From positions 1 through 37,494 of the forward strand of contig JAFGJB010000307.1 of the NCBI GenBank assembly GCA_016929295.1: a DNA stretch of 37,494 bases, read 5' to 3'. The translations under genes and the position numbers were made by a program. Shown here piece after piece: positions 20,351 to 28,336 of this stretch. The notes beneath the pieces are model-generated. The model saw only the letters and a list, made by a program, of their open reading frames with translations. It was not told the origin of the DNA and made no database searches. Numbering within the stretch: the stretch's first letter is position 1; every line of letters starts with the position of its first letter. This stretch comes from Candidatus Zhuqueibacterota bacterium. Its GTDB lineage: Bacteria; Zhuqueibacterota; Zhuqueibacteria; Residuimicrobiales; Krinioviventaceae.

Positions 20351-21616
20351 GTGAAGAGGTCCAGCCATTGCCAGTGCATTTTTTTGATCGTCGCCTCATT
20401 AATTTTTATCACCTGTAAAATTGAATCACCCGAGCAACAGATGCCGATTATGGTCTGGTACGGACCCAGCATCAAGAACGTGACTTCCTTTGATTTTTGG
20501 AATATTCGCGAAGCAGGATTCAATCAATGTCTCGTCGATTTAGAAGAAAGTGCTCTCAACTTTAAGGCGCTGGCGTTCGCCGACTCGATCGGCCTGGGCC
20601 TCTACTTGACAGATGACCATGTGAACCGCTTTGCAGGCCATCGAGACAGTTCTCTCGTCAGCATCGATAGTCTGACGACTCTCTATCATTCTCATCCTTC
20701 ATTTCTGGGATATTATTTATCCGACAAACCGGGATTACAAGACTTTGCGTCCATTTCGACATTGATCGACTATTTCAACAGCAAGCATCCCTCTCATCAC
20801 TATTTCGTGCAAGCCAATCCGGAGTATTCGACGCCGGCAATGCTTGACACCGTCGTTTATAGAGATTATCTCTCCTTATTGGTGCAGAAATTGAGACCCA
20901 AATTTCTGAGCGTCGAATATTATGGCATCGTCAGAGATAAACTGAGACCGGAGTTTTACACGAATCTGGGGCAATTGCGTCAGGTTTCTTTGGACAACAA
21001 TTGCCCTTTTTGGGCTTTCGCTCTGCTCGTATCTTTCGACGATCATCCCCAAGTCGCTCATTCGCACGTACGCGTTCAGATCTATGCCGGTCTGGCTTAT
21101 GGCGCCAAGGGGGTCCAGTATTATTCGTATCGCCCTCCAAAAGATGATGCCCACGAATACGGCGAGGCACTGCTGAATCAAGAAGGTGACAGAACGCCGG
21201 CTTTTTCTTACGCACGGATGATTAATGCTGAAATTCAGCAGCTCGGCGCCGTGCTGATGGGGCTCAAATCGACCGGCGTTTATTTCAGCCATCCTGTTCC
21301 GCGTGGCGGCCAGCCGTTCAAACCAGGTCTGCCGATCATCAAAATCAATTCGCCATCTATTCTCAGCGGTTTTTTTGAGAACGAATCAGGGCAAAAGTAT
21401 GTCATGTTCGTCAATACCGATTTCTTTTATGGCAAGCTCGCACGAATCCATTTTTCCGAGAATGTCCAGGCTCTCATCGAAGTATCGAAAAATTACATGC
21501 CGCCATTGGTCATCGAGTGGAAAGATGAGCTTTTCAAGGATGCCGATATACTCTTCAGGGCCGGCGATGGTCGTCTATTTGAAATCATCGAAAAGCCGCA
21601 GAAATCCGGCGATTAG
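20351..21616 (+). CDS. unknown lipoprotein with glycoside-hydrolase-like TIM-barrel character
   Basis: A 421-residue secreted protein. A signal peptide with a relaxed lipobox (FITC, C22) precedes the mature part. It reads like a beta/alpha-barrel: MVWYGPSIKNVTSFDFWNIR, then the run LGYYLSDKPGLQDFA, then GAKGVQYYSYRPPKDDAHEY. Ending segments are beta-rich (GFFENESGQKYVMFVNTDFF). The YYLSDKPG and GAKGVQYYSYRP patterns resemble those around active sites of beta-galactosidase-like (GH42/DUF4434-like) proteins, but I could not assign a family or catalytic residues with confidence. The start is a GTG with GGAGAG eight bases upstream. Its stop codon overlaps the stop of the convergent ThuA-like gene, sharing two bases. 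Confidence 0.7.
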   Translation: MKRSSHCQCIFLIVASLIFITCKIESPEQQMPIMVWYGPSIKNVTSFDFWNIREAGFNQCLVDLEESALNFKALAFADSIGLGLYLTDDHVNRFAGHRDSSLVSIDSLTTLYHSHPSFLGYYLSDKPGLQDFASISTLIDYFNSKHPSHHYFVQANPEYSTPAMLDTVVYRDYLSLLVQKLRPKFLSVEYYGIVRDKLRPEFYTNLGQLRQVSLDNNCPFWAFALLVSFDDHPQVAHSHVRVQIYAGLAYGAKGVQYYSYRPPKDDAHEYGEALLNQEGDRTPAFSYARMINAEIQQLGAVLMGLKSTGVYFSHPVPRGGQPFKPGLPIIKINSPSILSGFFENESGQKYVMFVNTDFFYGKLARIHFSENVQALIEVSKNYMPPLVIEWKDELFKDADILFRAGDGRLFEIIEKPQKSGD

Positions 21617-25144: not shown

Positions 25145-25338
25145 TTCTTATCACCTTTTTTGAACGGTTGATGAGTCGGGGGTGTTGTGCGCGGATTGTC
25201 ACTGCTATCCAGCAATATTCGGTACCAGCATCCCTTGCACATAAGAGCGCGATCGACGCTGAGGAGCACCTGCTCCCAGGGACTCAACTTTCGGCCGCAA
25301 TGCGGGCATATCTCCGGTATTTTATCAAGGCTGTCCAA
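25141..25338 (-). CDS. small zinc-ribbon protein
   Basis: A 65-residue protein with two cysteine pairs, C11-x2-C14 (ICPHCGRK) and C34-x2-C37 (MCKGCW), about 20 residues apart, which is the spacing of a zinc ribbon. A polar tail (NPRTTPPTHQPFKKGDKK) follows. No enzyme motif is seen. The start is a TTG at 25338 with GAGG eight bases upstream, lying 14 bp inside the end of the preceding gene. The stop overlaps the ATG of the downstream glutamate dehydrogenase (ATGA), suggesting translational coupling. A regulatory or scaffolding role within the operon is an inference from context. Confidence 0.65.
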   Translation of the reverse strand: MDSLDKIPEICPHCGRKLSPWEQVLLSVDRALMCKGCWYRILLDSSDNPRTTPPTHQPFKKGDKK

Positions 25339-28336
25339 AATCGGCCTCAGGTTTTAGAATGATGCCCTTGCTTTCGTGACCGTCCATTTTAATGACCAAT
25401 GGGCTTTCGAAGCGCAGATGTCGCACACAGGGCGTTCTGGCGACCGGCGCCTGACTCAGCAGCCAGTCCCAGTTGATGAAATTGTCTTGATGTTCGGCAT
25501 GAACGGTAAAGTACCCCACCATGAATGAATTCAAATTTTGGAAAAAGTGCGAGCCCTGCGACGGCGTCACATAAAAATCGCGAAAATTCGCTTCGACAAT
25601 GGCGCGCGCGCCGGCTATTTGGTCCCAGGTGACCGGAATGCCCAACCACGGATCGAGCGAACCCAGTCGTCCGACGCAGACGAGCAGATAGGGACGTTTC
25701 TCTTCCACCAGGGTGGCATTGAAAGCGCTGATATCGGCGACGACGTCGCGGCTTTTGGAGCGATCAAAATTGTCGCGATCGACCAGGATGATATCGTATA
25801 TATTTCGCAATACGCCATTGCCGAGCACCTGCACGCTCTTGCAGATCAATTCGTTCTTGCTGAACTGTTCGATCCTGAGCATTTCCAGCTCGCGATTCAG
25901 CACCACCGGGCGCATCTGCAGCAAGCCAAACTCCCTTGGCTGACCGGACGGTGTGTGCAAATTGACAGCGAACTCGATCTCCACGGGCGTGCCCATGCCC
26001 CAGCTTCCCATATCCAGAACCAGCTCCAGGATGTGCGCCAGCGGAAAGATTTTGCTCTTCAGCAATGGTGCAAAAGTCACCAACCTGGATCCGGGGCGCG
26101 AGATGCCGTCATAAATTGTATTGTTCTCCGGCGAATAGGTCGAGCCAAGCATCGATAACGTGCCGTCCAGTTCAGCATCTTTGAGCGGATATTCATGAAT
26201 CAGCTCTTCCAGCCCGTCGGTCTCCGGCGAGGCACTCAATGGCAACGCGTAGAATGTCGTTTGGGCATGTTGCAGTGTCGTCTTGAGATCATTCGTCAGA
26301 TTGAGGTGCGCAGGATATTTCGGACAAAATCGCACGGATGATCCGCCCTCGACGACCATTTTCCCCAGACCAAGCGCGGCCGATACGATGCCGTCGGCTG
26401 CCTTTTGCGGATGCACGGGATAGAAATTATAAGAGCGGGCGACGCCGGAAAAATCGGGATAAAAACGCTCCCCAAACGATGTGCCGATCATCTTTTGCAC
26501 AATCACCGCCATTTTCTCATCCCGCAGATTGTAGGATGTCGCCTTGATATAATCCTTTGCCGCCTTGAGGTATGTTGATGCAAAAACGCGTTTGATCGCC
26601 TGCAGCAGGTCGCGCAGTCCGATCAAGGCGTCCGAATTGGTATTCGGCAACATGATGGTGTCGTAGACGCCGGCAAAAGGTTGATTATGCGAATCTTCCA
26701 GCAAGCTGGAGGATCGGACGGCAAGCGGCGTATCGACCAGATCGAGGAACGATGCCAGTTCACCCAGAATACCCTTCGGAAAGTTTTTGGCCTGCAGAAA
26801 ACGTCCGATGATCTCCTGATCGTCTTCGCACTCCAGGGCGAATTTCAGCAGGTTATTTTCGCTCATAAAGGCGTCGAAAATATTGGTGCCAATGACGATC
26901 GCCGGCGGGATATAAATGCGGACATTTTCAAAACGATCCTGAACATTGTAATTGTTGATTAAAATATTGACAAACGACAGACCTCGCGCCTTGCCGCCCA
27001 GGGAACCGCCGCCAATGCGGGAGATGCTGCTGTAGGGATCAAATGACTCTTTGTCAAAATCGGTGATGATGCCGCGCTGGCGTAATTTTCGATAGTCGCG
27101 CAATTCTATGATCAGCGATTGCCTGGTTTCTTCGACGGAAGAATAATCGGATATCTTGCGCGGCCGCAGCTTGTGTGCAAGCCAGAATTCTGTGCGAGCT
27201 TTGAGCCAGTTGGAGAAATGATTGCGTTCCGCATGATAGACAATACTCTCCTCTGGCACATCGTGCAGGACGTTTTCCAGGGTGAGCAAATCAGATGCCC
27301 GACCAACATGCTGTCCCTCCGGTGTGCGAAAGATGAAATCACCAAAAGAGAGTTTGTCGATGAGAAAGTTGCGAAAATCCTGCAGGAGCGTCGGCGATGT
27401 TTTAAGCACAAAACTGGCGCCGTATTTTTTGGCTAATCGCGCATTCTTCTCCTGCGATGAATGGAAAAGGATGGGAATATCCGGATGTTCCAGGTGCACG
27501 CGCCGTGCCAGCTCCAGGCCGGCCTCGGGATCGGCTCTGCCGTGACGCGGAAAGTTGATATCGGAAATGACGCCGAGGACATTTTCCGCATATTTCTCAT
27601 AATAGGCCCAGGCCTCTTCAAAACAGGTACAAAAGAGTATCTTGGGACGCGCCCGCTGCCGCAACTGTTTGTGCGACAGGTTGATCCCTTCGGAAATCAG
27701 TCGCTGAGATTGGCGCATGACTTCCACATAGATGATGGGCAAAAAATAGGAATAAAAACGCACGTTATCTTCGATCACAATGATGGATTGCACGCCGACC
27801 AGATTGGTGTCATGTTCGACATTCATTTTGTCTTCGAGATGCTTGACGATTGCCAGCAGCAGGCGAAAATTTCCATTCCAGATGAAAACCTCATCAAAGA
27901 TATCTGCGGCTCCCTGCGTGAGCAGATCGGCTAATTCGCGATTATCAAATGCCAACAGCACAATGGGTATGGTGATGCCGGCTTCGCGCACGCGTTTGGC
28001 AAAGGTCGGCACACTCATGTCTTCGATATGCAGTGTGGTGATCAAGAGATCAAATCGCCGTTCTTCCTGGATCAGGGCAATGGCTTCTTCGCCATTTGAT
28101 ACACGGGTGAGCTCGGGAGCGTGACTGAGATTCAGCTCTTGATACTTGTCCCGCATGAGTTCGTACAAACGGCCATCCTCTTCGAACACGTAGAGATCGT
28201 AAAGGCTGGATACGAGGAGAATATCACGAATGCGCATGCGCATGAGATTCTGGAATCCCTGAAAACGGGTGCCATAGCCATGCTCCACCCACAGCGGATC
28301 GGCGTACGGCAGAGCTTTGTCGATGTGACTGTTCAC
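25325..28336 (-). CDS. double-receiver plus PPDK-N (pyruvate/PEP dikinase ATP-grasp) protein
   Basis: A 1003-residue soluble protein. Residues 37-170 form a receiver-like fold whose phospho-acceptor aspartate is replaced (FDLLITTLHIED, T101). Residues 183-330 form a second receiver that keeps the acidic pair E189-D190 (IIVIEDN), phospho-acceptor D259 (GVISDINFP) and lysine K312 (VLKTSP), so it looks phosphorylatable. From about 440 lies a pyruvate/PEP-dikinase ATP-grasp domain, with IGGGSLGGKARGLSFVNI, PPAIVIGTNIFDAF, LAVRSSSLLEDSHNQPFAGV and QMRPVVL. I see neither the swivelling phospho-histidine (TSH) domain nor the PEP-binding TIM barrel needed for a full PEP synthase. The GTG at 28336 has AAGGA upstream. 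It sits 14 bp behind one glutamate dehydrogenase and is separated from the second only by the zinc-ribbon gene. Enzymatic activity is uncertain. Confidence 0.85.
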   Translation of the reverse strand: MNSHIDKALPYADPLWVEHGYGTRFQGFQNLMRMRIRDILLVSSLYDLYVFEEDGRLYELMRDKYQELNLSHAPELTRVSNGEEAIALIQEERRFDLLITTLHIEDMSVPTFAKRVREAGITIPIVLLAFDNRELADLLTQGAADIFDEVFIWNGNFRLLLAIVKHLEDKMNVEHDTNLVGVQSIIVIEDNVRFYSYFLPIIYVEVMRQSQRLISEGINLSHKQLRQRARPKILFCTCFEEAWAYYEKYAENVLGVISDINFPRHGRADPEAGLELARRVHLEHPDIPILFHSSQEKNARLAKKYGASFVLKTSPTLLQDFRNFLIDKLSFGDFIFRTPEGQHVGRASDLLTLENVLHDVPEESIVYHAERNHFSNWLKARTEFWLAHKLRPRKISDYSSVEETRQSLIIELRDYRKLRQRGIITDFDKESFDPYSSISRIGGGSLGGKARGLSFVNILINNYNVQDRFENVRIYIPPAIVIGTNIFDAFMSENNLLKFALECEDDQEIIGRFLQAKNFPKGILGELASFLDLVDTPLAVRSSSLLEDSHNQPFAGVYDTIMLPNTNSDALIGLRDLLQAIKRVFASTYLKAAKDYIKATSYNLRDEKMAVIVQKMIGTSFGERFYPDFSGVARSYNFYPVHPQKAADGIVSAALGLGKMVVEGGSSVRFCPKYPAHLNLTNDLKTTLQHAQTTFYALPLSASPETDGLEELIHEYPLKDAELDGTLSMLGSTYSPENNTIYDGISRPGSRLVTFAPLLKSKIFPLAHILELVLDMGSWGMGTPVEIEFAVNLHTPSGQPREFGLLQMRPVVLNRELEMLRIEQFSKNELICKSVQVLGNGVLRNIYDIILVDRDNFDRSKSRDVVADISAFNATLVEEKRPYLLVCVGRLGSLDPWLGIPVTWDQIAGARAIVEANFRDFYVTPSQGSHFFQNLNSFMVGYFTVHAEHQDNFINWDWLLSQAPVARTPCVRHLRFESPLVIKMDGHESKGIILKPEADFGQP

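Follow-up and report, generated by a model that had tools for sequence, protein, structure and literature searches.

The 1003-aa protein encoded at positions 25325-28336 (reverse strand) of contig JAFGJB010000307.1, from a Candidatus Zhuqueibacterota bacterium (assembly GCA_016929295.1), probably serves as a control partner for the glutamate dehydrogenase (GDH) encoded beside it, in this organism and in many bacterial groups. The window, i.e. the whole stretch of DNA analysed, is 37,494 nucleotides long. The open reading frame (ORF), which starts with GTG, was confirmed, and its product, which joins receiver domains to a PPDK_N domain, is referred to here as PEPR. Genomic context gives good support to PEPR and GDH forming a functional unit. 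Neighbourhood and co-occurrence with GDH are indeed the strongest clue to its function, and one which the first-pass annotation, made from the sequence alone, did not contain.

At this locus the PEPR gene lies 14 nt after the gene of one GDH (GDHa) and 180 nt before that of another (GDHb), the three genes being on one strand; the operon is read from spacing and strand alone, since promoter and terminator scans at the locus gave results at chance level. GDHa scores 739.6 bits against the NCBIfam model NF006929 (cut-off 536) and matches Pfam ELFV_dehydrog, while GDHb, also supported by Pfam, reaches 522 bits with NCBIfam GdhA_Arch-like, below the equivalog cut-off of 750. A homologue 93% identical to PEPR, and 79 more at 39-68% identity, were retrieved in a single scan of a collection of genomes at species level. 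In the clade above 50% identity, counting copies with a visible flank, a same-strand GDH gene stands immediately upstream in 31 of 34 (median gap 84 nt) and a GDH gene follows downstream in 21 of 34. The three copies lacking the upstream gene are that of locus L030, explained by overlapping ORF boundaries, and two others, both in L029. The linkage is seen in records titled KSB1, Ignavibacteria, Acidobacteria, Calditrichota, Zixibacteriota, Myxococcota and Delongbacteria, the last of these (42% identical) showing a tandem PEPR-GDH-PEPR arrangement. Apart from GDH, no neighbouring gene family is shared by more than 11 of the 80 loci. Relatives of PEPR are also present in cultured Bacteroidales, e.g. 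Hoylesella. As a separate observation, six Bacteroidetes/Bacteroidales loci (L053, L065, L066, L070, L071 and L073) carry tandem copies of a protein of about 1000 aa, the second copy being 36-39% identical to the window protein.

The second line of contextual evidence comes from 53 genomes of the class to which the window belongs, 26 of which have a GDHa orthologue (61% identity or more). PEPR was found in 24 of the 26 genomes with such an orthologue (in two of the 24 as contig-end fragments) and in none of the 27 genomes without it (Fisher p 4e-13, a value that ignores shared ancestry). Families f1, f3, f4, f9 and f10 hold both states, with PEPR and GDHa co-varying, and f11 does likewise with one exception. 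Incidentally, the genome encodes a third GDH (C290), and none of the PPDK_N genes found lies on its contig.

The association extends to distant relatives that possess the ATP-grasp and C-terminal domains of PEPR and no receiver. These come in a short form (about 590 aa) and a long form (about 930-1120 aa), and follow a further GDH, GDHc, in the order GDHc-short-long in L126, L127, L195, L197, L198, L199 and L200, or GDHc-long in L128, L130 (where the frame is interrupted) and L208. In a split form, a protein of 485-490 aa that is colinear with PEPR residues 1-436, bearing a complete second receiver and, by eye, two DUF5752-like repeats, adjoins a 555-aa PPDK_N plus C-domain protein; the pair sits next to a large NAD-GDH of about 956 aa in L123 (11512-17921) and L124, while L131 runs off its contig. 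Three GDH types are thus paired with PPDK_N plus C-domain proteins: the GDHa type, GDHc and the large NAD-GDH. Three observations on this wider family may be recorded on their own account. The long protein of L127 shows weak matches to GAF and to a C-terminal nucleotidyltransferase-type domain, the whole being reminiscent of nitrogen regulators of the GlnD/GlnE type. In the split form, a second GSHF motif lies in an insertion directly ahead of the conserved GTHF motif. Finally, selenocysteine, an idea raised by in-frame TGA codons flagged in some of the 590-aa paralogues, was considered and discarded: the open frames are complete and reach up to or into the next gene, and the flagged TGAs look like gene ends past which the profile runs.

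As to the protein itself, the AlphaFold2 model of full-length PEPR (pLDDT 83.4, pTM 0.67) with its structural matches, together with Pfam, bears out the layout first proposed, namely two receivers followed by a PPDK_N ATP-grasp domain. Response_reg is matched at E 1e-8, and the two receiver folds of the model match solved receivers at Z of about 13-14.6 (up to 14.6 for the first, about 13.7 for the second). The second receiver was rightly described as complete: D259 and K312, with E189, are present in every aligned sequence, and E189/D190, D259, S293 and K312, the residues expected of a two-component receiver, are invariant or nearly so. The first receiver has T or M where response regulators have the acceptor aspartate. 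Position 101, a threonine in PEPR as the first-pass annotation had pointed out, is M in 51 and T in 35 of 88 sequences, otherwise L or I, and D in none; the acceptor has therefore been lost family-wide. Between the receivers and the ATP-grasp domain lies a linker whose match to DUF5752 in the window copy (E 4e-4) falls below the curated cut-off; the profile does match 28 of 30 family members scanned, at best with E 5.6e-8. No mention of DUF5752 was found in the open-access literature searched.

The ATP-grasp domain matches PPDK_N (PF01326) at residues 445-815 with E 1.2e-37, and contains the motifs GGKARGL and VRSSS...FAG, as had been reported from the sequence. Its best structural matches are phosphoenolpyruvate (PEP) synthase 2ols (Z 26.3) and rifampin phosphotransferase (RPH; Z 26.2); the score against NCBIfam RIF_Ptrans_rph is 36.6 bits, for a cut-off of 999. 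In a 78-row alignment K449, R541, E788, Q807 and R809 are invariant. K449, E788, Q807 and R809 align with nucleotide-site residues of the PPDK and PEP-synthase-type proteins of the same genome, and R541 aligns with the PEP-synthase-type protein, the PPDK rows being out of register there. From this invariance and correspondence, the ATP site of PEPR is, judged on sequence, intact and not a relic. The PEP/pyruvate TIM barrel is indeed missing, as first noted: every residue belongs to another domain, with none left past the C-terminal domain, and PEP-utilizers_C is unmatched in Pfam. PEPR was correctly regarded as something other than a complete PEP synthase.

The C-terminal domain is where the present analysis departs from the first-pass annotation, according to which the phosphohistidine (swivelling) domain was missing as well. 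This is probably wrong. Residues 815-1003 were modelled by themselves, with an alignment of 105 relatives among which are paralogues only about 20-25% identical, giving a model with pLDDT 88.7 and pTM 0.89. Most of the structures that the isolated domain matches (VIA-align) have the swivelling beta/beta/alpha fold. Over its whole length it matches, at Z 7.0, the pyruvate kinase C-terminal domain (3t05), at Z 6.6 the phosphoryl-carrier domain of PPDK (2fm4) and the histidine domain (756-867) of rifampin phosphotransferase (5fbu/5hv1), and at Z 6.3 PPDK 5lu4; matches to the phosphohistidine domains 2fm4, 5fbu, 5lu4 and 2x0s range over Z 5.8-6.6. Likewise, in the full model residues 7-467 of PEP synthase 2ols align with PEPR 426-1000, and residues 6-510 of PPDK 1dik with PEPR 427-996, i.e. 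across ATP-grasp and swivel together. Modelling therefore largely yields, in the region 850-1003, the swivelling histidine domain whose appearance there had been named as the outcome that would count against its absence, with Z of 6.3-6.6, which are moderate, and with no sequence-level homology.

A single histidine of this domain, H930, is invariant in 105 of 105 sequences. It stands at the start of a helix, after a strand, within the motif S-[QF]-G-[ST]-H-F-F, which is kept in nearly all members, distant paralogues included; departures, small ones, occur in a few, e.g. SQASHFF (L112) and TQGTHFL (split form). The order of elements around it (strand, Gly-containing loop, [S/T]-H, helix, strand) is the same as around the phosphohistidine of PEP-utilising enzymes. 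A swivelling-type domain is a rather confident assignment; that H930 carries phosphate is somewhat less secure, yet still the likelier case. A stand-alone TSH protein elsewhere in the genome, suggested earlier as a possible complement, was not found: the only PF00391 matches are frames of 794 and 603 aa, the first of which also bears PPDK_N and is PEP-synthase-like, the second being presumably enzyme I of the phosphotransferase system. Such a protein would be unneeded since, if the C-terminal domain is a swivel, PEPR has its own.

In the scheme that would bring these elements together, D259 of the second receiver would take up a phosphorylation signal, the first receiver serving for contacts only. 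PPDK_N would bind ATP and phosphorylate H930 on the diverged swivelling domain by dikinase chemistry, with release of AMP and Pi. The missing acceptor domain would be supplied in trans, most likely by GDH or else by a molecule that GDH binds; energy state and receiver signal would then together set the activity of GDH. Action on another protein, raised in the first-pass annotation, is accepted as a possibility. The phosphorylation of H930, the arrival of the phosphate at GDH and the direction of regulation are the steps of this scheme that I infer. Taken as a whole, a dedicated GDH partner with a receiver-gated ATP-grasp acting through H930 on an acceptor in trans is the best explanation available, though a tentative one, on which I would stop short of an even bet. 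More speculative still is the generalisation that receiver-gated dikinases might pass the phosphate of ATP, via a non-canonical phosphohistidine swivel domain, to GDH (or to their own receiver), and would make up a widespread class of post-translational control that evolved with at least three GDH types.

Several points weigh against this scheme. GDH is nearby in only 11 of 54 members of the set below 50% identity, in most members from Bacteroidales (about 43% identical) the gene is not next to GDH, and PPDK_N plus C-domain paralogues of 773-796 aa (L118, L120, L203, L205, L206, L207) have no adjacent GDH; gene context, moreover, cannot show phosphotransfer or its target. The Z of 6-7 for the swivelling fold is moderate and is also reached by members of that fold that are not phosphohistidine domains (the GroEL apical domain, aconitase and the transferrin receptor). 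Fold-level support is moderate as well, because Foldseek with the C-terminal domain alone gave no match at E of 0.001 or below. Profile-profile comparison with PF00391-type and PEP-utilizers domains gave no signal (hhalign probability about 0.2%), and Pfam finds no PF00391 match in PEPR; in view of the former, structure, position and the invariant histidine are what the swivel assignment is based on. Finally, the C-terminal domain lacks T/SxxGGxxxH (GGxTS/CH), the canonical phosphohistidine motif (PMC12167813).

Among the alternatives, PEPR may be a sensor of ATP or energy that transfers no phosphate, its nucleotide and receiver states setting an allosteric contact with GDH. The linkage to GDH and the lack of an acceptor domain would fit such a role, for which GarA, controlling metabolism by protein binding, offers a precedent (PMC5448819). 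The phosphate-handling residues K449, R541, E788, Q807 and R809 are invariant, as is H930, which suggests catalysis over mere binding, and I regard a pure sensor as unlikely. Slightly less probable is a self-contained phosphorelay, in which phosphate would pass from the ATP-grasp domain via H930 to PEPR's own D259, PPDK_N and swivel replacing a histidine kinase, and the phosphorylated receiver module would control GDH by binding. The full conservation of the second receiver is in line with it, as is the adjacency, in the split form, of receiver and PPDK_N-swivel genes colinear with the two halves of PEPR; no histidine-kinase domain was detected among 20 neighbouring window ORFs scanned, and across the loci GDH is the sole widely recurring neighbour, yet orphan receivers with unlinked kinases are common. 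Several GDH-linked PPDK_N plus C-domain paralogues without a receiver retain the H930 motif, which speaks against the receiver as the only output of H930.

Less plausible again is a small-molecule dikinase, in metabolic operon with GDH, that would phosphorylate a substrate or product of the latter (2-oxoglutarate, glutamate) or a derived metabolite. The PPDK_N-swivel enzymes considered, namely PEP synthase, PPDK, RPH and HpeHI, do act on small molecules (PMC4844700, PMC12167813), and the ligases PigC/RedH are among the weak best NCBIfam matches of PEPR, but no small-molecule acceptor domain is recognisable, different architectures pair with the three GDH types, and two receivers would be unusual on a biosynthetic enzyme. 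A decayed PEP synthase lying by chance in a GDH operon, for which the missing barrel might speak, hardly deserves credence given about 100 invariant positions across 78 divergent homologues, an intact ATP site and co-inheritance with GDHa.

The modules of PEPR are all known, and several known systems can be compared with it. As in PEPR, the PPDK_N ATP-grasp domain of PEP synthase and PPDK has a swivelling beta/beta/alpha domain after it, and its ATP-site residues are those of PEPR; PEPR differs in that it has no TIM barrel, its histidine domain is without GGxTSH, it carries two receivers and a DUF5752-like domain ahead of the ATP-grasp, and it is linked to GDH. RPH, which uses dikinase chemistry (PMC4844700), likewise has the ATP-grasp fold and a C-terminal histidine domain, whereas in PEPR the C-terminal domain directly follows the ATP-grasp, with no rifampin-binding domain, and order and partner are different. 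In the two-component phenol dikinases HpeHI/CreHI/PpsAB the modules are on separate polypeptides (PMC12167813), a precedent for dikinase modules sitting on different proteins; those systems join the swivel to the acceptor domain and keep the ATP-grasp apart, while PEPR has ATP-grasp and swivel in one chain and lacks an acceptor. GarA/OdhI with PknG, in the actinobacterial control of GDH and the tricarboxylic acid cycle, is a dedicated protein partner of glutamate-metabolism enzymes, as proposed for PEPR (PMC5448819), yet it consists of an FHA protein and a Ser/Thr kinase and has no domain in common with PEPR. The open-access literature searched contained nothing on the PEPR family, and the combination of modules, the diverged histidine domain and the tight link to GDH are undescribed in it.

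The features of the locus, and the long paralogues beside GDH, are listed in Table 1. Elsewhere in the window, a 421-aa ORF at 20351-21616 (forward strand) has no Pfam match at E 1e-5.

Table 1. Positions of PEPR, its domains and GDH neighbours in the window, and of long paralogues at other loci
Feature	Position	Strand	Basis
PEPR, whole gene: degenerate receiver, receiver, DUF5752-like, PPDK_N ATP-grasp, putative swivelling-type C-terminal domain	25325..28336	-	ORF, Pfam, AlphaFold2, structural matches, 78-row alignment
Receiver 1, aa 35-170; T101 (codon 28034-28036) in place of acceptor Asp	27827..28234	-	fold match, family alignment
Receiver 2, aa 182-331; acceptor D259 (27560-27562), K312 (27401-27403), acidic pair E189/D190	27344..27793	-	conservation, fold match
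Linker domain, aa 332-436, DUF5752-like	27029..27343	-	DUF5752 profile matches
PPDK_N ATP-grasp domain, aa 437-812; K449, R541, E788, Q807, R809	25901..27028	-	Pfam, structural matches, residue mapping
Putative swivelling beta/beta/alpha-type C-terminal domain, aa 815-1000; H930 (25547-25549)	25337..25894	-	model, structural matches, invariant His, distant paralogues
GDHa, NADP-type glutamate dehydrogenase, 453 aa	28351..29712	-	NCBIfam NF006929, Pfam ELFV_dehydrog
GDHb, second glutamate dehydrogenase, 415 aa	23897..25144	-	NCBIfam GdhA_Arch-like, Pfam
Long PPDK_N plus C-domain proteins by GDH (930-1120 aa)	L126:7235-10408, L127:5823-9005, L195:5135-7921, L197:4766-8131, L198:3110-6373, L199:3594-6791

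To sum up, glutamate dehydrogenase joins carbon and nitrogen metabolism, and no dedicated protein regulator of it in these phyla is described in the open-access literature searched. The co-occurrence of PEPR with GDHa and the repeated pairing of its relatives with different GDH types lead to the prediction, specific and testable, of a GDH control system, one that the relatives in cultured Bacteroidales (Hoylesella) make testable in isolates. Along the same line, dikinase modules, so far known mainly for the phosphorylation of small molecules, may act on proteins.

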